This document shows, one piece after another, positions 2,814 through 42,152 of a stretch of 42,152 bases of DNA (the stretch's first letter is position 1; every line of letters begins with the position of its first letter). Origin of the DNA: a virus; IMG/VR virus record IMGVR_UViG_3300035698_007290, positions 1 to 42,152 of that record. One strand, given 5' to 3'. The position numbers were made by a program, and so were the translations under genes. The notes under the pieces are model-generated. The model ran no database searches. It had not been told where the DNA came from and worked only from the letters and a program-made list of their open reading frames with translations.

Positions 2814-5432
2814 TTGGCCCCTGTGATCGCTCCTGAGCCCAGCACCCCGAACGGCACGGGGAAGTCGTCCAAAGCCAACTGGAGCGCCCCCAGCCGGGCT
2901 GGGCGGCTCTGGAGTGGCAAGGCGGACTCCTCCCCCCGGGCTACGCCCATCAACGCGGGCGGCGGGGGCAAGTTCCTGGACCGGAACGGAAACTTCACCG
3001 TGGGCCGTGACGGGCGCCTAAAGGTGGCCAGCGACCGGGGCGAGCTGTTCAGCTTCTCGTCCCAAGTCCTGCGGATCACGTCGAACGTGGGCGACCGCGA
3101 GGAGACCGAGAGGCCGTACGAAGAAAATCCTTGGATCCGGGCCGCGATCAAAGCGTTTTCTGGAGGCTTCGCCAGGTTGAGCCTGCGGGTCACCGACCGG
3201 GATCCCGCTGACAAAGACGCGAAGGTCATCGGCGGGCACCCCCTCACAAAACTCCTTAGCAGTCCGAACCGACTCCGCACCGCGCGCGAGTTCATGTTCG
3301 AGACTTGCGTGGGGCACAAGCACGACGGCGAAGTGGTTTGGTTCCTCGCCGACGCGCAAGGCGCCGCAGTCGCGTCCGACCCGGTCACGCACAAGCTGCT
3401 CGCGGAGCCCGCGCAGATCATCGCCGTACGCGGCGGGCGCGTGCAAATCGAGCACGACTCCAAAGGCTGGCCGTCGTCGTACCGATATTCCACTGTCTAC
3501 GGGTCAAGCTCATCGGCAGTCTCGCCCGAGTTCCCGGCTGGGTCCGTCCTGCACTTCCGCGACTACGATCCGTACAACACGACGCGCGGGCTCGGCGACG
3601 TGACCTCCCTGGAGCGGGAGATCGACATGTACTTCCAGGGCTTCCGGTCGATGGACGGTAACGTCCGTTCCGGTGGAGCCCCCGGCGGCTTCCTCATCTA
3701 CGACACGGACGTAGATCCGGCGGAGATGCAGCGGCGCCAAGAGGGGATGGACGGCGAGGTAGAGTCGCAGGCGAATCGCACGATCAAGCTCATTGGCGGA
3801 GGTGCAACGTTCACGCCGAACGGCGTCAAGCCTTCGGACATGCAATACAAGGAGTTGTTCGCGTGGCTCCGCGAGTCGATCCTCGCCGTGCTGGGGGTTC
3901 CCGCCCCCGTGATCGGGGTCTATGACTCCGCGACGTATAACAACGTCGAGACGGCGCACCGCGAAATGTGGACGGGCCCGAACGGGATCCTTTCATTCGC
4001 CGTGCTGATCTCGGACGTGCTGACGCACAATCTGCTTCCGCGCCTGCCCGGCTACCGCACGGGCTCGACGGAAACAGTCAGCTTCGATTCGTCAATGATC
4101 GAAGTTCTGCGCGCAGACATCGGAGCGCAGATGGACCGCGCGGGCGACCTCGCCGCGAAGGGCGTCGGCGTCTCGTTCGCGCAAGGCATGGCCATGCAGG
4201 GCTCCGAGGCTGAACTTGACGAGGGGCTTGACACTCCATGGCAAGCGACCACACTCAGGAGCCTCGCCCCCGAGGACGAGGACACCGGCGACTTGTCGGC
4301 GTCCCCGGAGTCGGTGCTGTCCGCGCCGCAGATCGCCGCGCTGGCCGAGATCGTGAAGTCGGTCGCATCGGGCGCGCTGCCCAAAGACACCGCCGTCCAG
4401 ATCATCGTGGCGACGTTCCCCTTCGACCAGGCGCGCGCCGAGCGCATCATGCGCGACGTGGAAGAGGGCTCGAACCCGCAGCCCGACGCGCTGAATCCCA
4501 ACTCCGAAGACGAAGCTCCCGACGATGACGCAGAAGCAGAATCCGAAGACGGCGCTGAGGCCGAAGAAGCCGACGAGGCCGCTGCTGAGGACGACGACGC
4601 TCTACGCCATGAGGGCCAGGCGTATTCGTTCCCTCGCGATACGCCGGAAGAGCTTGGATACGCCAAGCGAGTGAACCGGTGGCTAGTCTCGTACGAGACC
4701 GCACAGACCCGGGAGTTCGGGCGCATCGCGCGGTCACGGCTCGGCAAGCGGCATCTGAATATCTTCGACGACGAATCGAACCCGTCCGCGATCCCCGATG
4801 AAGCGTGGGACGCACTACTACTCTCCCGCACGACGTGGGCCGCCCGCTTCGATCGTGAGACTCGCGTGGCTCTCCGCGACGTGTACGCCGCCGCGTTCGC
4901 CGAGGCCTCCGGTGAAGTGGCAGGTCCGATCGTGTCGACGACGGACCCCGCTGTCATCGAGATGATGGGGACCCAACAGATCAAGGTAGCCGAAGGCGTG
5001 ACGTCCACACTGGCCCGTCGCGTGCGGGCCATCGTGGTAAAGACGCTGGCCAAGGTGTCAGCACCCGGCACGTTGCGCGAGCAGATCCTTGCGGCGCTCC
5101 CCGAACTCACCGCAGAGATGGGGCGGGTGTTCGGCAGCAAGGACGCCCGCGCACTAGCCATCGCTCGCACGGAGACCGGCAAGGCGCGTAATCTGGCCCA
5201 CGTTGACCACTATGCCCGCAACGGCGTGAAGACGATTCGGTGGTCGACCGCTCAGGAGGACAGCGCACGCCCGTCCCACGCGGGCGTGCATAAACAAGTC
5301 ATCACGTTAGGAGGCCGGTTCGATAACGGACTGCGCCACCCACACGACCCCGACGCCCCTGCCGGCGAAGTCGTCAACTGCCGTTGCCGAATCTTTGCCG
5401 ACACGTTCACCGAGACCCTCGACGACCTATGA
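2814..5432 (+). CDS. Portal protein fused to MuF-type minor head protein
   Basis: This 872-residue protein joins two normally separate head proteins. Residues about 100-475 form an HK97-type portal, including YEENPWIRAAI near the start of the domain and the conserved stretch around LAVLGVPAPVIG. The portal forms the dodecameric DNA-entry ring of the capsid. Residues about 485-600 are a strongly acidic linker. Residues about 605-865 are a Phage_Mu_F-like domain with ARTETGKARN, then IRWSTAQED and the terminal VNCRCR motif; such proteins usually sit inside the head or are ejected. The start is uncertain: TTG at 2814 or GTG at 2823, since no ATG follows the in-frame stop. The end overlaps the protease start (ATGA). 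The terminase that usually precedes portal is absent. Confidence 0.93.
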   Translation: MAPVIAPEPSTPNGTGKSSKANWSAPSRAGRLWSGKADSSPRATPINAGGGGKFLDRNGNFTVGRDGRLKVASDRGELFSFSSQVLRITSNVGDREETERPYEENPWIRAAIKAFSGGFARLSLRVTDRDPADKDAKVIGGHPLTKLLSSPNRLRTAREFMFETCVGHKHDGEVVWFLADAQGAAVASDPVTHKLLAEPAQIIAVRGGRVQIEHDSKGWPSSYRYSTVYGSSSSAVSPEFPAGSVLHFRDYDPYNTTRGLGDVTSLEREIDMYFQGFRSMDGNVRSGGAPGGFLIYDTDVDPAEMQRRQEGMDGEVESQANRTIKLIGGGATFTPNGVKPSDMQYKELFAWLRESILAVLGVPAPVIGVYDSATYNNVETAHREMWTGPNGILSFAVLISDVLTHNLLPRLPGYRTGSTETVSFDSSMIEVLRADIGAQMDRAGDLAAKGVGVSFAQGMAMQGSEAELDEGLDTPWQATTLRSLAPEDEDTGDLSASPESVLSAPQIAALAEIVKSVASGALPKDTAVQIIVATFPFDQARAERIMRDVEEGSNPQPDALNPNSEDEAPDDDAEAESEDGAEAEEADEAAAEDDDALRHEGQAYSFPRDTPEELGYAKRVNRWLVSYETAQTREFGRIARSRLGKRHLNIFDDESNPSAIPDEAWDALLLSRTTWAARFDRETRVALRDVYAAAFAEASGEVAGPIVSTTDPAVIEMMGTQQIKVAEGVTSTLARRVRAIVVKTLAKVSAPGTLREQILAALPELTAEMGRVFGSKDARALAIARTETGKARNLAHVDHYARNGVKTIRWSTAQEDSARPSHAGVHKQVITLGGRFDNGLRHPHDPDAPAGEVVNCRCRIFADTFTETLDDL

Positions 5433-35537: not shown

Positions 35538-37571
35538 ATGAACTTAGCCCCCCAGTCTCAACCTGAGCCAGACGACGGGTTCGGTGAGCCGATTGGACTT
35601 TTCTTCGAGCAGGTGGCTTCCACGTTCGGGGGCGAGCGTGCTGATCCGGAGCCGGTCGGGGGCGCCGCGCCGGACGCTTGCGACCCCATTCCCCCGGACA
35701 CGTGCGCGGGCGCAGATACGTGCGCCTCGCCCGCGCCTCCTCGTGACGAGGGGGTTTCGGGGGAGGTCCATTTGCTCGGCCCCCCTGGTACGGGAAAGAC
35801 TCATGCATTGACGCGGCAGTGGATCCCCCGCGCCGTGGAGCGGTTCGGCGCGAACGGTGTAGCCGTGGTCTCGCTCACGAGGACAGCGGCGAAGGAGATC
35901 GGCGCTCGGCAACAGCAGCAGCTCCCCCGCGAGCGGGTGTCCACGCTCCACAGTCTGGCCCGCCGGGCGCTCACAGACGGGTGGGGGACCCCCCAGCTGG
36001 CCCAGACTCCCGAGGCCCTGGAGCGGTGGAACGAAGAGGTGGCGCAAGGTGACCCCGAGCTTTCCATGTCTGGGGCCGCCAAGGGGTCCTCTGTCGATCC
36101 GGCGGGCCAAGACGAGGGATCATCCAGGCTGCGGCGCGGAGCCCACAGGCGCGCTCAGGAGACCGTCCAGACAGGGGACGACCAGCTCAGCCGGATCGAG
36201 ATCTTCCGGCACCGGCGCATCGAGTGTGCGGCTTGGCCCCAGGAGCTTCTTGCCTTTTGGCGGAAATGGTGCGCGTGGAAAGTCGAGGAGCAGCTCTTCG
36301 ACTTCACGGACCTCATCGAGAAGGCTCTAGAGTACGGCGTCCCGCCGCCGCTGCATAACGGCGACCCCGTGCGGGCGCTGATTGTGGACGAGGCTCAGGA
36401 CCTGTCCGCGCTCGAAATGGCGCTCGTCCGGGCGTGGGGCGACAAGGTCGACCTGTTGGCGCTGGCGGGCGACCCTAATCAGTCCATCTACGGATTCCGG
36501 GGTGCGTCGTCCAAGGCGTTCCACCCGGCGAGCTTCGACCCCGCACGAACGCAAGTGCTCGGCCAATCGTACCGGCTGCCCCCGGCGATCCAAGTGCACG
36601 CGGAACGCTTCCTAGACCGTGCGCCGTCACGCGTGGTCGTCGACTACTTGCCGCGCGCCGACGCGCCCGATGACTCTGGCGTCTTCCCGCAGAGCTTCTG
36701 TGTCCGCGCCGGGTCGCAGCGTGTGGTCGACCTGGTCGAAGAGGAGCTGATCCGAATTGATGCGGACCGCGAGACCGATCATGGTCGCGTGGCTGTCCTC
36801 GTATCCGCCGCGTACATGCTCCAAGGCGTGCTCGCCGAACTGCGGCGGCGCGGCGTGCTCTTCCACAATCCGTTCCAGCTTGACCGGGGCGACTGGAACC
36901 CGCTGCGAAGCTCGCAACGTCACATCACGAGCTTCTTCCGTGGCGCGCGGCCCGACCTTACCGGCGACGACGGACCGGGCGCACGCGAGCCGAGGCTGTG
37001 GACGTGGCGCGAGCTTGCTGATTGGACCGACGTGGTGGCGGCGGCGGGGCTGCTTCGGCGCGGCGTGAAGACTCACCTCATCCCCGCGAGCGCGAAGGCG
37101 CGCGCGACCGCGGTCATTGACGGGTCGGACGCCGAACGCGTGTTCGTGGACTGGCCGAAGGTCAAGCGCGACATGTGGGAGCCGCTACTCTCCTCGAAGG
37201 AGCGTGAGCCCGAGGCGCTGGCGTGGTTAGCCTCACGGCTCTCGCCCGCGCAGTCGAAGCGGTTGACGTACCCGCTTGGCGTTGCACGTGCAGGTGTTGC
37301 GCGACTCATGGAATCGCCTCGCGTCCTTGTGGGGACACTACACTCAGTCAAGGGCGCGACGGCGGGCAGTGTGATCTTGGCGCCCGACCTTGCGCGTAGA
37401 CACGCCGACGAGTTCGCCGAAGGCGGCGAGCCGTACGAACAGATCATCCACCTTTTCTATGTCGGGATGACGCGCTCTTCTAGGCGTCTCCACCTACTCT
37501 CACCGTCCCCCGCATATGGTGGACGGATGAAGCGGGGCTCACGTGGAGCGCCGCTGTTCGTTGACCTGTGA
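35538..37571 (+). CDS. UvrD/Rep-type SF1 helicase
   Basis: This 677-residue ATPase has Walker A GPPGTGKT (81-88), motif II DEAQ at about 284-287, motif III GDPNQSIYGFRGA, the QSYRLP motif IV, LHSVKGATAGSV as motif V and YVGMTRSSRRLHLLSP as motif VI. The first 70 residues are a Pro-rich tail not expected in UvrD. It could unwind DNA in replication or recombination. It is preceded by the AT-rich island and followed by a beta-helix gene. Confidence 0.88.
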   Translation: MNLAPQSQPEPDDGFGEPIGLFFEQVASTFGGERADPEPVGGAAPDACDPIPPDTCAGADTCASPAPPRDEGVSGEVHLLGPPGTGKTHALTRQWIPRAVERFGANGVAVVSLTRTAAKEIGARQQQQLPRERVSTLHSLARRALTDGWGTPQLAQTPEALERWNEEVAQGDPELSMSGAAKGSSVDPAGQDEGSSRLRRGAHRRAQETVQTGDDQLSRIEIFRHRRIECAAWPQELLAFWRKWCAWKVEEQLFDFTDLIEKALEYGVPPPLHNGDPVRALIVDEAQDLSALEMALVRAWGDKVDLLALAGDPNQSIYGFRGASSKAFHPASFDPARTQVLGQSYRLPPAIQVHAERFLDRAPSRVVVDYLPRADAPDDSGVFPQSFCVRAGSQRVVDLVEEELIRIDADRETDHGRVAVLVSAAYMLQGVLAELRRRGVLFHNPFQLDRGDWNPLRSSQRHITSFFRGARPDLTGDDGPGAREPRLWTWRELADWTDVVAAAGLLRRGVKTHLIPASAKARATAVIDGSDAERVFVDWPKVKRDMWEPLLSSKEREPEALAWLASRLSPAQSKRLTYPLGVARAGVARLMESPRVLVGTLHSVKGATAGSVILAPDLARRHADEFAEGGEPYEQIIHLFYVGMTRSSRRLHLLSPSPAYGGRMKRGSRGAPLFVDL

Positions 37572-37593: not shown

Positions 37594-39147
37594 ATGACCA
37601 CACACGAAGAACTTGACGCACGCGAAGCAGCCTTGCGGGCGGCTTTGCACACACATATGGCAGAGTCGAGCACGTCGCTCACGGCAGCAGCGTTCAATGC
37701 AAGCGTGAGTTCGCGCGCAGCGAACGAGTACGGCATCGGTATGGAGTCGATCCTCGGCTACGCCCAAACAGCACTGACGACGGCGCTCGTCCAAACCGAT
37801 CTGCTACAGAAAGTCATCGACCGCGCACGTGAGGGGCAACGGCGCATCGACGAAGCGCGTGCTGGAGTTGGCGGGTGGACAGACCCGGTGCCGGATATCC
37901 ACGCGCGGCTTGGAATGCCAATGGAGGAAGCCAAGGCGGATGCGTTGCGGCGCCACAAACTGCGCTCACTTCCGAAGCCGCACCACCTCCCCGGCGGCGG
38001 CAGCGACGTAGCAAACCAAGCGTCAGACTGGCGTGACTCTACGTTTACGATGGCGTGGCAATGGGCGTTCAACCGTCACTTGATTATGGCGCCAGCCGAC
38101 ACGGTGCCGTTCCACGACCGCCCGCCGGGGGACCCCACAGGGCTCGTTCCGATTGAGCCCCCCAAGGTGACGGCGCTGTTCCAGAACTTGGAGTTCACGG
38201 GCTTCGAGGAGACGGATGACTTCCACGATTTCAAGTGGTGCATTCGCAGCTACAACAACTGGGCGGTTCTCGTCGACGCCTGCACCGCGATCTGTCCACG
38301 CGCGACGTGGGCGGCGGACAACTACGCGCCTGCGATCTCTGAGCACTTCGGCTACTTCGAAGCGGAGGGCGCCTACACGTTCCAGAACTCGTACATCGAG
38401 GGCTTCGGGGGCCATGGCTCATACTTCGCTTACCGCCCGTTCCCGTTCCAGCAGTACCACGCGTCGAACCGCTTCTTCCAGGCAAGCGAGACGTTCCAGG
38501 TTCTGCACTCGATGTTCGTCGACATGGACCAGGCGCCAGGGCGCGGCGCGTTCGCGGTGCAGTTCTTCAACGCGGGCGACTTCGCGCACCCCGGTAACGT
38601 CGTGATGGACGGAATGGAGGTCTACGCTAAGTGGGACTTCGTCCGGTCGCAGGGGGTATGGGATCCGATCCCTTACACCGACGACTTCCAGCCCGGCGGC
38701 GCGGGCTCGCGGAACTGCAACGCCTTCGGCGCGTTTGTTGTGCACCCGTACGACGTCCAAAAGCACCACGACCGCGCGGTAGCTCTCGGGGTCACTCCGG
38801 GGCATATCACGGACACGGTGACGGTAAAAAACTCGACGATCAAAATGAGTTTCTCGCAGCAGCCGGTGGCGGCGATCAGGGCGACGAAGCACGTCGTGAT
38901 AAAGGACTCCATGTTGGAGGCTGACACGCGGCACCGGTCGCCGTTCATCTGGGTAGATGATGACGCATATGTTCGGAGCTTCTGCGAGGCGGAGTCAATC
39001 ACCGTCGAGAATGTGGCGGGCCAAAACCTGCGCGTGAGGAAGGTGCTCGATAACGGGAAGATGGTCACGTCCCCCGAGAACCTCGTCGGAAAGGTCGCCG
39101 TGTGGCGTACCGGCATGACGGAATTCGAAGTGACCGATCTCGCGTGA
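37594..39147 (+). CDS. Probable beta-helix protein (tailspike/pectate-lyase-like fold)
   Basis: This 517-residue protein starts MTTHEELDAR with a helical N-terminal 100 residues, then a long segment with short strand repeats. Examples are NLEFTGFEE, CIRSYNNWAVLVDAC, AYTFQNSYIEGF and DTVTVKNSTIKMSFSQQPVAAI, typical of right-handed parallel beta-helix turns with Asn and aromatic stacks. It is probably a structural or polysaccharide-active protein, but no catalytic residues are sure. It is separated from all other virion genes by the DNA-metabolism module and followed by the hairpin repeat. The ATG at 37594 follows a C/A leader; earlier starts would overlap the helicase. Confidence 0.55.
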   Translation: MTTHEELDAREAALRAALHTHMAESSTSLTAAAFNASVSSRAANEYGIGMESILGYAQTALTTALVQTDLLQKVIDRAREGQRRIDEARAGVGGWTDPVPDIHARLGMPMEEAKADALRRHKLRSLPKPHHLPGGGSDVANQASDWRDSTFTMAWQWAFNRHLIMAPADTVPFHDRPPGDPTGLVPIEPPKVTALFQNLEFTGFEETDDFHDFKWCIRSYNNWAVLVDACTAICPRATWAADNYAPAISEHFGYFEAEGAYTFQNSYIEGFGGHGSYFAYRPFPFQQYHASNRFFQASETFQVLHSMFVDMDQAPGRGAFAVQFFNAGDFAHPGNVVMDGMEVYAKWDFVRSQGVWDPIPYTDDFQPGGAGSRNCNAFGAFVVHPYDVQKHHDRAVALGVTPGHITDTVTVKNSTIKMSFSQQPVAAIRATKHVVIKDSMLEADTRHRSPFIWVDDDAYVRSFCEAESITVENVAGQNLRVRKVLDNGKMVTSPENLVGKVAVWRTGMTEFEVTDLA

Positions 39148-39462: not shown

Positions 39463-39601
39463 TCACCTAGCAGCCGCCGCAGGCTTGAACGCGCTCGTCG
39501 CCTTTAGCGTGCCGTCATCGTGCACCGTCTGCGCTACGCTCATGCTCGATGAGCTTGAGGTGGGGCATACACCTTTCGAGCGCGTATTGGGGTCGCAGTG
39601 A
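39455..39601 (+). CDS. Tiny hypothetical protein upstream of the resolvase
   Basis: A 48-residue frame starting with GTG (MLSHLAAAAG) has a hydrophobic N-terminal part with CTVC and an amphipathic C-terminal part (MLDELEVGHT). It ends in a GTGA overlap with the RuvC-like gene, the usual junction in this genome, which argues that it is a real coding gene. Confidence 0.4.
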   Translation: MLSHLAAAAGLNALVAFSVPSSCTVCATLMLDELEVGHTPFERVLGSQ

Positions 39602-40155
39602 GCGGCGGCGACATCTGGATCGGTGCCGACCCTGGCAAGACGGGCGGCGTGGTGATACTGGACGGCGACGGCAAGTACCTCGCGGCGACGTCGATGCCGA
39701 TCATCGGGGAGGGGACGAAAGCGCGCTGGCGGGTGGCGGGCGGCGTGCTCCTGGAATGGATCGACTCGGTTATCACCCACCGCGAGCTTCGTGGCGCAGT
39801 AGTGCAGGGCTTCGCGATCGAACGTGTGGCGTCGATGCCGCATGATGGCCCGACTCGTGCGTTCCGCTTCGGGCGCGCGACCGGGGCGCTGTTCATGTTG
39901 GCGGAAACCCAAAGCTGGCCGATCTACGAGGTGAGCCCGAAGGACTGGCAGAGCATGTTTCTTCGGGGCTACCCGAAAGGGCCACAGCTCAAGGCCAGCA
40001 TCGCGCTGGCGGCGGCGGACAGGTTCCCCGCGCTCGCAAATGTCTTGCAGCTCAAGAAGAATTGGGGCCTGGCAGACGCAGCGCTTATCACCGAAGCCGC
40101 GAGGCTGATCGAAGATCATCGCGGCGCCTCAGCGAGGGGCACACTAACGCCATGA
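39598..40155 (+). CDS. RuvC-like Holliday junction resolvase
   Basis: This 185-residue protein has the RNase H-like resolvase pattern. Asp11 in WIGADPGKTGG lies on the first strand, Glu75 in FAIERVASMP on the fourth, and Asp160 in GLADAALITEA on the last helix. The SPKDWQSMF segment is typical of phage RuvC-like proteins. It would cut four-way junctions in replication intermediates before packaging. It starts at GTG overlapping the tiny gene upstream, and the next gene starts in its TGA. Confidence 0.85.
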   Translation: MSGGDIWIGADPGKTGGVVILDGDGKYLAATSMPIIGEGTKARWRVAGGVLLEWIDSVITHRELRGAVVQGFAIERVASMPHDGPTRAFRFGRATGALFMLAETQSWPIYEVSPKDWQSMFLRGYPKGPQLKASIALAAADRFPALANVLQLKKNWGLADAALITEAARLIEDHRGASARGTLTP

Positions 40156-40358
40156 CGAAGACCAGGCTCATCAAACTGAACTCCGACGATTATGCCTACT
40201 GGGTGAACCCGGCTCATATTGCGTTTATGTCCGTCTACGAAGGCGTGACCAGCATCTACCAGACTGGAGACGTCGATCCCTATCGCGGGACCATTTGCGT
40301 CGTGGAGACCCCGGAAGAGATCATCGAAAAGATCGCGGAGGCGGAGGCGCAGCCATGA
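40152..40358 (+). CDS. Small beta protein, FlbD-like shape
   Basis: This 68-residue protein starts MTKTRLIKLN in an ATGA overlap. It has strands with VNPAHIAFMSVYE, TSIYQT and GTICVVETPEEIIEKIAE. This resembles small FlbD-like beta proteins and is common in phage genomes, but the role here is unknown. Overlaps both neighbours. Confidence 0.55.
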   Translation: MTKTRLIKLNSDDYAYWVNPAHIAFMSVYEGVTSIYQTGDVDPYRGTICVVETPEEIIEKIAEAEAQP

Positions 40359-41011
40359 CGAATACGCTCAGGATCACACGCCGAAAGCTCACGGAGCTGC
40401 ACGAGGACCCCGACAATGCGCGGCGCCGTGACGACAATGCACACGAGGCGATCATGCGCTCGCTCGGCGCGTTCGGTCAGCAAAAGCCCATCGTCATCAA
40501 CGCGTCGGGCACCATCATTGCGGGCAACGGCACCTTCGTGGCAGCGCAAGCGCTCGGGTGGAAGGACATAGCGACCGTGGAGACGTCGCTGGCGGGCGCT
40601 GAGGCGCGCGCGTTCGCCGTTGCGGACAACCGGACGTCGGACCTATCGGGATGGTCTGACGAGGCTCTCTTGAAGGCGCTGGATGAGGCGTCACGCGAGG
40701 AGGGCGATACGCTGCTGGCGGCTACCGGCTTTTCCCCGAACGATCTCGCACGGCTTCGGGACGCGGCGCTCATGAGCGTGGCGTTCGAACGGGACGACGG
40801 CGAGGGGGACGACGAGGACGAAGACGAAGAGTACGTCCCGACTGCGCCCACGGATGCCTGTATCACAATGCCCTTCGTGGTCACCGAACAAGAAGCGGAG
40901 CTGATCCACCGCGCGATCAAGCTGGCGCGGACCGACACTGACGAACCCATGACCCGAGCGTGCGCGCTATCGCGCGTGGCCGAGTTCTACCTCGAACAAA
41001 ACAACTCCTGA
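40355..41011 (+). CDS. ParB-like nuclease-domain protein (IbrB-like)
   Basis: This 218-residue protein has the ParB N-terminal fold, about residues 12-115: GQQKPIVINASGTIIAGNGT, AALGWKDIATVE-like text and DNRTSDLSGWSDEALLKAL. The GN-G-T box is visible. A highly acidic run follows (about 148-160), then a short C-terminal region with TRACALSRVAEF. Such ParB/sulfiredoxin-type proteins bind nucleotides or nick DNA. With the PP-loop gene downstream it resembles the IbrA/IbrB pairing. It starts in an ATGA overlap. Confidence 0.75.
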   Translation: MTNTLRITRRKLTELHEDPDNARRRDDNAHEAIMRSLGAFGQQKPIVINASGTIIAGNGTFVAAQALGWKDIATVETSLAGAEARAFAVADNRTSDLSGWSDEALLKALDEASREEGDTLLAATGFSPNDLARLRDAALMSVAFERDDGEGDDEDEDEEYVPTAPTDACITMPFVVTEQEAELIHRAIKLARTDTDEPMTRACALSRVAEFYLEQNNS

Positions 41012-41013
41012 CC

Positions 41014-41847
41014 ATGAACCAAGATCCCCCGTTCATCCCGTTCAAGACGTACGATCTGACCGGTGGTGGCGTGCTCGACGTCGACCCGCAACCTGCGTTG
41101 GAGTCGACCATCTTCGGCGCTGCTGGCCCACTCGGACCGCGCTCTATGTCGGAGGCGATTGAGCACTGTCACCACGACACGCCGGGGACTTACTTCGGCT
41201 TCGTCGCGGAAGGCTCAGTGATCGTGCAGCCACTCGAAGGCCCCCCGTACTTGGTGCAGAGAGGCGAGTGGTTCGCCGAGCCCACCATGCCCCAGGTGCT
41301 GGCCTCGGCGTTCCCATTGGACCGCGAAGGGGTCGGCGTGTTGGACGCTAAGGCGATCATCATCAAGCGCCACGGCTTCACGGGATTGCGCGCACGCGGC
41401 GGGCCAGTTGAAGCGGCGGGCAGGCTCCGCTACATCGACGGGTGCAGCGACTCTCTGCTGTACTGCCCGCCGGTCGTCGGCGATCCGTGCTTGAACCTGC
41501 TTCACTTCCCGGGCGGGATCAAGCAGACGCAGCACACGCACCCGTCTGCACGCATCGGCGTAGTGCTCGGTGGCGAGGGGTATTGCGTTGACGGCCAGGG
41601 CGAGACGACAGCGCTCGTGGCTGGCGTCGTGTTCAACATCCCGGCGGGGTGCGTGCATAGTTTCAACACGGACGAGGGGAAGAGCCTGGACATCTTCGCG
41701 TATCACCCTGATTCCGACTGGGGTCCCGACCACGGCGACAAGGACACACATCCGATGCTGTCCCGTACGTGGGTCGACGGGGAACCGATCGACAACCAGA
41801 CCGAAGATCACGACCCGCTCGACCTCATTAGCGGCTACACGCAGTAA
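41014..41847 (+). CDS. Bicupin protein
   Basis: This 277-residue protein has two cupin halves. The C-terminal half has QHTHPSARIGVVLGGEG and GVVFNIPAGCVHSFN; the second motif matches the cupin consensus well, while the usual Glu of the first motif is absent. The N-terminal half (CHHDTPGTYFGFVAEG, with WFAEP) is degenerate. Metal binding by two or three His is likely in the C-terminal half; the substrate is unknown. It sits between the ParB-like and PP-loop genes, starting two bases after the former and ending in a TAATG overlap with the latter. Confidence 0.75.
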   Translation: MNQDPPFIPFKTYDLTGGGVLDVDPQPALESTIFGAAGPLGPRSMSEAIEHCHHDTPGTYFGFVAEGSVIVQPLEGPPYLVQRGEWFAEPTMPQVLASAFPLDREGVGVLDAKAIIIKRHGFTGLRARGGPVEAAGRLRYIDGCSDSLLYCPPVVGDPCLNLLHFPGGIKQTQHTHPSARIGVVLGGEGYCVDGQGETTALVAGVVFNIPAGCVHSFNTDEGKSLDIFAYHPDSDWGPDHGDKDTHPMLSRTWVDGEPIDNQTEDHDPLDLISGYTQ

Positions 41848-42152
41848 TGGGTCGCTCGTTCACCAAGACGGCGTCGGACAAGGACGTCTTGACGCTGGCG
41901 CGTGAGCGCACGCATCGGGCTTACGAATTGGCCGACACCGTTGCGGTGCTGTTCTCGGGCGGGAAAGACTCCACGGTGGTTCTGAACGTGGCGCTCGCGG
42001 TGGCGCGCGAGCTGGGACGACTCCCGCTTGACGTAGCGCACTGGGACGAAGAGGCGATCCACCCGGAAACGGTCGACTACGTTCGGCGCGTGGCGCAAAA
42101 CCCTGACGTCAACTTCCGCTGGCTGTGCCACCCGGTCAAGCACCGGAATTCA
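41847..42152 (+). CDS. PP-loop ATP pyrophosphatase, PAPS reductase/IbrA-like (3' truncated)
   Basis: The first 102 residues of a protein cut by the window edge. The PP-loop SGGKDST is followed by a strand containing LPLDVAHWDEEAIHPETVDYV. This is the pattern of PAPS reductase-like N-type ATP pyrophosphatases, including IbrA and DndC relatives, which activate substrates with ATP. Overlaps the cupin gene by TAATG. The C-terminal part that would separate these subfamilies is missing. Confidence 0.8.
   Translation, partial: MGRSFTKTASDKDVLTLARERTHRAYELADTVAVLFSGGKDSTVVLNVALAVARELGRLPLDVAHWDEEAIHPETVDYVRRVAQNPDVNFRWLCHPVKHRNS

Follow-up and report, generated by a model that had tools for sequence, protein, structure and literature searches.

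A ParB, Bicupin and PP-Loop Gene Cassette at the End of a Viral Contig and the Putative Four-Gene Module to Which It Belongs

Genes at the Contig End

The DNA considered here (below, the window) is the entire IMG/VR record IMGVR_UViG_3300035698_007290 of 42,152 bases. It ends with three plus-strand genes arranged head to tail and coding for a ParB/Srx-fold protein (ParB-A), a bicupin and a PAPS-reductase-like PP-loop protein (Table 1). A preliminary description of this DNA spoke of an overlapping cassette with tight junctions. Both junctions are indeed tight, and the bicupin and PP-loop genes overlap by 1 nt in TAATG, but ParB-A and the bicupin are separated by a 2-nt gap (TGA-CC-ATG) and do not overlap. 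The cassette and the window do not differ in G+C content (0.643 and 0.645, respectively), which gives no hint that the genes were acquired recently from elsewhere. Upstream of the cassette, a Holliday-junction-resolvase-like gene (39598–40155) and a UvrD-type helicase gene (35538–37571) were found, and a 516-aa protein without a clear Pfam or PHROG match is encoded between them (37597–39147).

No terminase was recognised among the scanned window proteins. The portal gene is located near the opposite contig end. As a terminase usually follows the cassette in relatives, the record most likely does not contain the end of the PP-loop gene, the second ParB gene (ParB-B, see below) and the terminase; the latter two are probably absent here simply because the contig ends. 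The start of the window was considered as the site of the missing PP-loop gene end and rejected, since it carries short ORFs followed by the portal gene, which also means that the record is more than a mere rotation of a circular genome.

Table 1. Features of the cassette and the portal gene in the window.
Feature	Position	Strand	Basis
ParB-A, ParB/Srx-fold protein, 218 aa	ATG 40355..TGA 41011	+	ORF, domain and PHROG matches, structure-profile match, family alignment
Bicupin, 277 aa	ATG 41014..TAA 41847	+	ORF, Pfam, alignment, AlphaFold2 model
IbrA/YbdN-type PP-loop (PAPS-reductase-like) protein, first 102 aa of about 390	ATG 41847..42152, open at contig end	+	Domain and PHROG matches, YbdN similarity
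H174-T-H176 codons, presumed metal ligands of cupin motif	41533..41541	+	Both His invariant in 45/45 aligned cupins
H215 codon, presumed third metal ligand	41656..41658	+	Invariant in 45/45 aligned cupins
C144 codon within invariant YIDGCxD motif, family signature	41443..41445	+	Invariant in 45/45 aligned cupins
SGGKDS PP-loop (ATP pyrophosphatase) motif	41955..41972	+	Sequence; (nearly) invariant in PP-loop family alignment
Portal/head-morphogenesis protein, opposite contig end, outside the cassette	2814..5432	+	PHROG portal 8.8e-62

Bicupin

The second protein belongs to the cupin superfamily, as follows from its match to Pfam Cupin_2 (2.5e-12), the AlphaFold2 model with a bicupin fold (pLDDT 82) together with the fold search, and an invariant histidine triad (HxH...H) in the C-terminal cupin, where R180 occupies the position of the usual Glu. 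Sites made up of three His are characteristic of several non-haem iron dioxygenases. The protein also matches an AraC-type ligand-binding profile, and neither NCBIfam nor PHROGs contains a family for it. Ureidoglycine aminohydrolase/YlbA and related bicupins are the nearest solved folds of the model (Z about 18), being at the top but nearly tied with other bicupins, and the sequence matches in the PDB are weak. Direct assignment of an activity by structure was rejected, because many solved bicupins of varied activity score similarly (Z 15–18). In one relative (L013, 7080–8669), the bicupin carries an N-terminal extension of ~260 residues.

PP-Loop Protein

The open PP-loop ORF of the window matches PAPS_reduct (1.7e-6) and phrog_2302 (1e-29), and its fragment shows 34% identity to YbdN over 93 aa. 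The full-length similarity of relatives places the protein in the IbrA/YbdN (DUF3440) family: the PP-loop protein of the relative L008 is 33% identical to Escherichia coli YbdN over 342 aa (E 5e-48), and the DUF3440 region was found in the PP-loop proteins of L002 and L013. The PP-loop motif is conserved across the aligned family. The structure predicted for the full-length L008 protein (pLDDT 88) has as its nearest folds the PAPS domain of FAD synthase (Z 15.1), CysD (14.4), APS reductase (14.4) and PAPS reductases (down to 12.3); according to this model, the fold neighbours are those members of the superfamily that transfer or bind adenylyl groups.

Two more specific identities were rejected. 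The C-terminal ECGLH-type motif of CysH was found in 0 of 89 PP-loop cores of relatives (the window gene ends before that region), and the NCBIfam CysH score was 28 against a cut-off of 154. DndC membership was dismissed on the 15.5 bits that L008 received from the NCBIfam DndC model, with a cut-off of 290.4. Two well-conserved cysteines, C93 and C102, are present in the cassette PP-loop family, and neither is kept in YbdN.

Two ParB-Like Proteins

ParB-A of the window matches phrog_620 (1e-31) and ParB_N with an E-value of 8.5e-4, a match that falls short of the Pfam cut-off. When compared with structures, its family profile matches ParB/Noc/Spo0J proteins with values down to 3e-14 (Spo0J 6sdk) and has only weak contact with SbnI (0.0085) and free serine kinase. 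The profile of ParB-B, the protein encoded in relatives by the gene beyond the window, matches ParB 4umk at 8e-6, so both profiles fall into the ParB_N fold (ParB CTPase/Noc). ParB-B of relatives shares 43% identity with YbdM across 166 aa and belongs to the IbrB/YbdM family.

These data modify the pairing with IbrB/IbrA that had been proposed for the window genes. The PP-loop half of it stands, the protein being YbdN-like, but the ParB of the window was rejected as the IbrB counterpart, as it represents a separate group, a different ParB/Srx family with only distant profile similarity to ParB-B. Judging from sequence similarity, the IbrB/YbdM counterpart is the second ParB, located 3' of the PP-loop gene in relatives, which would here lie past the contig end.

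Module in Uncultured Viruses

When 50,697 phage records were searched by tblastn with the bicupin, there were no matches, so no isolate carrying this bicupin came to light. Scanning for the cupin with a single sequence gave one relative, and a two-sequence profile gave 408 viral relatives, which shows the former result to be an artefact of sensitivity. Among the best 80 of these 408, analysed for gene order, the arrangement was uniform: ParB-A, bicupin, PP-loop (about 390–460 aa) and ParB-B. This is the commonest order, and the alternative one (ParB-A, PP-loop, ParB-B, bicupin) is its cyclic permutation. The suggested ParB–cupin–PP-loop order prevails in these viral loci, with ParB-B added at the 3' side. 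ParB-B, which is more conserved than ParB-A, is normally encoded 3' of the PP-loop gene, and the terminase gene is usually next. In the uncultured relative L002, for example, ParB, bicupin, a small PP-loop protein and a class II amidotransferase are followed by the PAPS-reductase-like PP-loop protein, the second ParB, an HTH protein at the place of the small terminase and the large terminase.

Another scan, led by a different sequence, extended the non-redundant viral cupin set to 96 loci, of which 44 had flanks of 3.5 kb or more on either side and were testable. By raw profile matches, PP-loop and ParB genes are situated near the cupin in 43 of these 44, so a cupin without its partners was met only once. 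This gene order is not a matter of chance. Pairwise distances are correlated as well (r = 0.62 for cupin and PP-loop, 0.59 for cupin and ParB-B, 0.75 for PP-loop and ParB-B), values unmatched in 500 permutations. The earlier proposal that the three products belong together agrees with both the co-occurrence and the correlated divergence. Comparison of the relatives shows the real unit to be a four-gene module consisting of ParB-A, bicupin, IbrA/YbdN-type PP-loop and IbrB/YbdM-type ParB-B genes and usually placed just upstream of the terminase. Uncultured viruses carry this module by the hundreds. It does not include a base-flipping methylase, a glycosylase or a TGT.

Several loci differ in details. 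The sole exception among the well-flanked bicupins of the viral collection, without PP-loop or ParB neighbours, is L062 (7911–8597). The cassettes of L002 (5925–7221), L020, L026, L028 and L243 contain an additional gene pair that resembles a split asparagine synthetase: another PP-loop gene of smaller size and, after it, the gene of a class II glutamine amidotransferase. Amidoligase (PF12224) and gamma-glutamyl cyclotransferase-like genes adjoin the cassette in L059 (7832–10394) and L222 (7708–9241) and recur in several viral loci; L059 additionally has a class II amidotransferase.

Interchangeable Supply Slot

Scans with PP-loop and ParB-B alignments, in which the cupin was not a selection criterion, gave 88 non-redundant PP-loop loci, surveyed within a 3.5 kb range; since cupin-linked members had served to build both alignments, the sample is biased towards cupin-bearing loci. 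The bicupin is present in 56 of the 88. Its place is taken by an unrelated mono-cupin in 7–8 core loci, a sodium:solute symporter (SSS) in five (one of them alongside a mono-cupin) and a TctC-type binding protein in two. Within 3.5 kb, 19 of the 88 loci contain no recognised cupin or transporter, 13 of these being short of flank, and such a core was also found in several phage isolates. Further insertions in core loci are a short-chain dehydrogenase (SDR), an aldehyde dehydrogenase, and an ABC permease with an NMT1-type binding protein, the latter in a viral-contig PP-loop/ParB locus (L246, 4954–7473). Two isolated phages have an ectoine-synthase-like (EctC-type) cupin, which forms a fusion with ParB-B in Mycobacterium phage Gaia (L088, 4617–5516) and is encoded by an adjacent gene in Pseudoalteromonas phage XCL1123 (L087, 4595–5525).

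The presence of three dissimilar cupins and three dissimilar transporters next to a single core speaks for a requirement for a small molecule, which is probably supplied to the core by the cupin or transporter of the slot. The comparative context favours the initial idea that the substrate which the PP-loop enzyme activates could be supplied or processed by the cupin. The replacement of the cupin by another cupin or a nutrient importer also suggests that the module attaches a small molecule to something, possibly to the phage's own DNA.

Bicupin Relatives in Bacteria

The same bicupin is present in bacteria of many phyla. An asparagine-synthetase homologue was found within 5 kb of it in 36 of 80 bacterial loci; by our estimate, this would be expected for about 1% of random genes. 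When asparagine-synthetase, PP-loop, AMP-ligase and PAPS-reductase-like genes are taken together, 53 of the 80 loci have one within 5 kb, and three more with the unassigned family g41 bring the number to 56 (two of the three have or neighbour AMP-binding-like genes). Judging from these gene neighbourhoods, the common theme of the bacterial loci appears to be the activation of acids by adenylation, and they resemble small-molecule or surface-modification operons rather than DNA-modification ones. A Dlt-like operon of a Bdellovibrionota genome (L144, 5232–9221), which combines MBOAT, bicupin, AMP ligase and acyl carrier protein genes, suggests a role of the bicupin in surface acylation. In Methylococcales (L099–L107), the bicupin gene belongs to a conserved block with two asparagine-synthetase homologues and an unknown Zn-ribbon membrane protein.

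Possible Functions

The reading that we prefer is as follows. The cupin would make or tailor a small carboxylate-type molecule, which other phages would import or make otherwise. The PP-loop enzyme might then activate this substrate by AMP transfer (ATP → AMP + PPi), and the two ParB/Srx proteins, binding NTP and DNA, may direct the reaction. The group would end up on the phage DNA before packaging, DNA being the most likely acceptor by parallel with Dpd. DNA as the final acceptor is quite possible, if short of probable. The whole chain from cupin supply through adenylation to ParB-directed transfer, built by analogy, can be offered only tentatively. The recurrence of ParB proteins in DNA modification speaks for it. 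Against it stand the cores that have no recognised cupin or transporter, the lack of a base-flipping methylase, glycosylase or TGT in the module, the chromosomal ybdNM pair of E. coli and the bacterial bicupin operons, which are not of the DNA-modification kind. Rather doubtful is its broadest form, a widespread hypermodification of phage DNA in which the PP-loop and ParB pair attaches an adenylate-activated small carboxylate, with bicupin, mono-cupin, EctC-type cupin, aldehyde dehydrogenase or importer as interchangeable supply; different phages would then install different groups. The link of E. coli ybdNM to CitR (PMC9068703), together with the TctC-type protein in the slot, gives a weak hint at a tricarboxylate substrate.

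Alternatively, the genes could form a pathway of free metabolites that leads via adenylation to an amide or a conjugated amino acid, the ParB/Srx proteins being small-molecule kinases like SerK/SbnI that do not act on DNA. We regard this as unlikely, but it deserves serious attention. The amidotransferase and small PP-loop genes inside five cassettes, the amidoligase and GGCT genes 3' of the cassette in several viral loci, the bacterial bicupins alongside asparagine synthetase, AMP ligase and ACP, and the weak contact of the ParB-A profile with SbnI and free serine kinase are all consistent with it. However, both ParB-A and ParB-B match DNA-binding ParB/Noc proteins far better than SerK/SbnI, the position next to the terminase fits late DNA handling, and the amidoligase and amidotransferase genes occur in a minority of loci only.

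It is improbable that the pair acts in regulation, co-activating prophage genes in the manner of IbrA/IbrB while the cupin senses a small molecule. Phage records do annotate the core as IbrA/IbrB co-activators, and the AraC-type profile match of the bicupin and the repression of the adjoining ybdNM by CitR in E. coli (PMC9068703) agree with such a role. Nevertheless, the cupin has no DNA-binding domain, its exchange for transporters and dehydrogenases fits a substrate and not a sensor, and the conserved PP-loop motif argues for catalysis.

Sulfur chemistry, in which the PP-loop protein would thiolate or phosphorothioate nucleic acid like DndC and the three-His cupin would be a partner resembling thiol dioxygenases, seems very improbable. 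The PAPS-reductase fold and the conserved C93 and C102 of the cassette family speak for it, and DndB of the Dnd systems belongs to the ParB superfamily (PMC12839542), but both cysteines are missing in YbdN, the DndC score is far below the cut-off, and neither cysteine desulfurase nor DndD/E was recognised among the annotated neighbour families. An ordinary auxiliary metabolic gene, a CysH PAPS reductase of sulfate assimilation with unrelated neighbours, is hardly credible: databases and papers annotate the gene in this way (PHROG 2302; PMC10434257 for a different phage PAPS reductase gene), but all 89 cores lack the CysH motif, so that this is not standard sulfate reduction, the identity to YbdN contradicts a standard assimilation enzyme as well, and the cassette is conserved as a unit.

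Significance

The ParB and PAPS-reductase-like pair has long been known by the IbrA/IbrB names only, with no biochemical function found. The cassette gives this pair a fixed third partner from a tractable enzyme class, and a slot that holds varied enzymes and importers provides a direct handle on the substrate. A gene to which a viral survey gives the name "cysH" or PAPS reductase can be part of a conserved module that is non-assimilatory, and this matters for what is claimed about sulfur metabolism in viruses. If the DNA hypermodification reading were true, many viral "cysH" auxiliary metabolic genes would be misnamed, and a DNA modification as the product would give phages a novel type of protection from restriction.

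Comparison with Known Systems

The ParB and PAPS-reductase-like pair is already known, while the four-gene bicupin module, its wide presence in viruses and the interchangeable slot were not found in the open-licence literature; the texts on cupin, ParB and PAPS reductase in phages, screened by title and term counts, do not describe the cassette. The closest likeness is to IbrA/IbrB and E. coli YbdN/YbdM, where DUF3440 PP-loop and ParB genes are also adjacent and the identity amounts to 33% and 43%, respectively. The phage module differs from these pairs by the additional ParB-A, by a cupin or transporter and by its usual place beside the terminase. The E. coli ybdNM genes are a chromosomal pair that neighbours CitR and is repressed by it, so their role could be metabolic or regulatory (PMC9068703).

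Clusters of mycobacteriophage Gadjet, Arthrobacter phage Shrooms and Faecalibacterium phage FP_Taranis contain the same ParB/PAPS-reductase/ParB core genes in the same position near the terminase, but without bicupin; a methyltransferase is annotated in Shrooms and Bacillus phage 031MP003 and a membrane transporter in FP_Taranis. Gaia and XCL1123 share with the module a cupin coupled to an IbrB-type ParB beside a PP-loop gene and differ from it in that the cupin is a single EctC-type one and no adjacent ParB-A is annotated. With ureidoglycine aminohydrolase/YlbA, the bicupin shares a fold at Z values common to many bicupins, so no activity is implied.

DndC of DNA phosphorothioation and BrxP of BREX have the same PAPS-reductase-like PP-loop fold. 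In contrast to DndC, the PP-loop protein of the module scores far below the family cut-off and no Dnd partners were recognised; the PADLOC scan covered the three window proteins, and the neighbour genes were clustered and their representatives annotated.

The Dpd 7-deazaguanine system combines, as is proposed for the module, a ParB-like protein and a base-modifying enzyme with a precursor that is made or imported. In Dpd, the ParB-like protein is an ATPase and its partner enzyme exchanges the base. DpdB, a member of the ParB superfamily as is DndB, works in DNA modification with the transglycosylase DpdA (PMC12839542), a TGT, whereas the phage module has a PP-loop enzyme and cupin instead. In Fusobacterium phage phiFN37 (L093, 3719–10495), a PP-loop/ParB pair is located near a set of Dpd-like ParB, queuine tRNA-ribosyltransferase and queuosine-precursor transporter genes. 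ParBc genes also accompany the hypermodification of cytosine in phages (PMC12783734).
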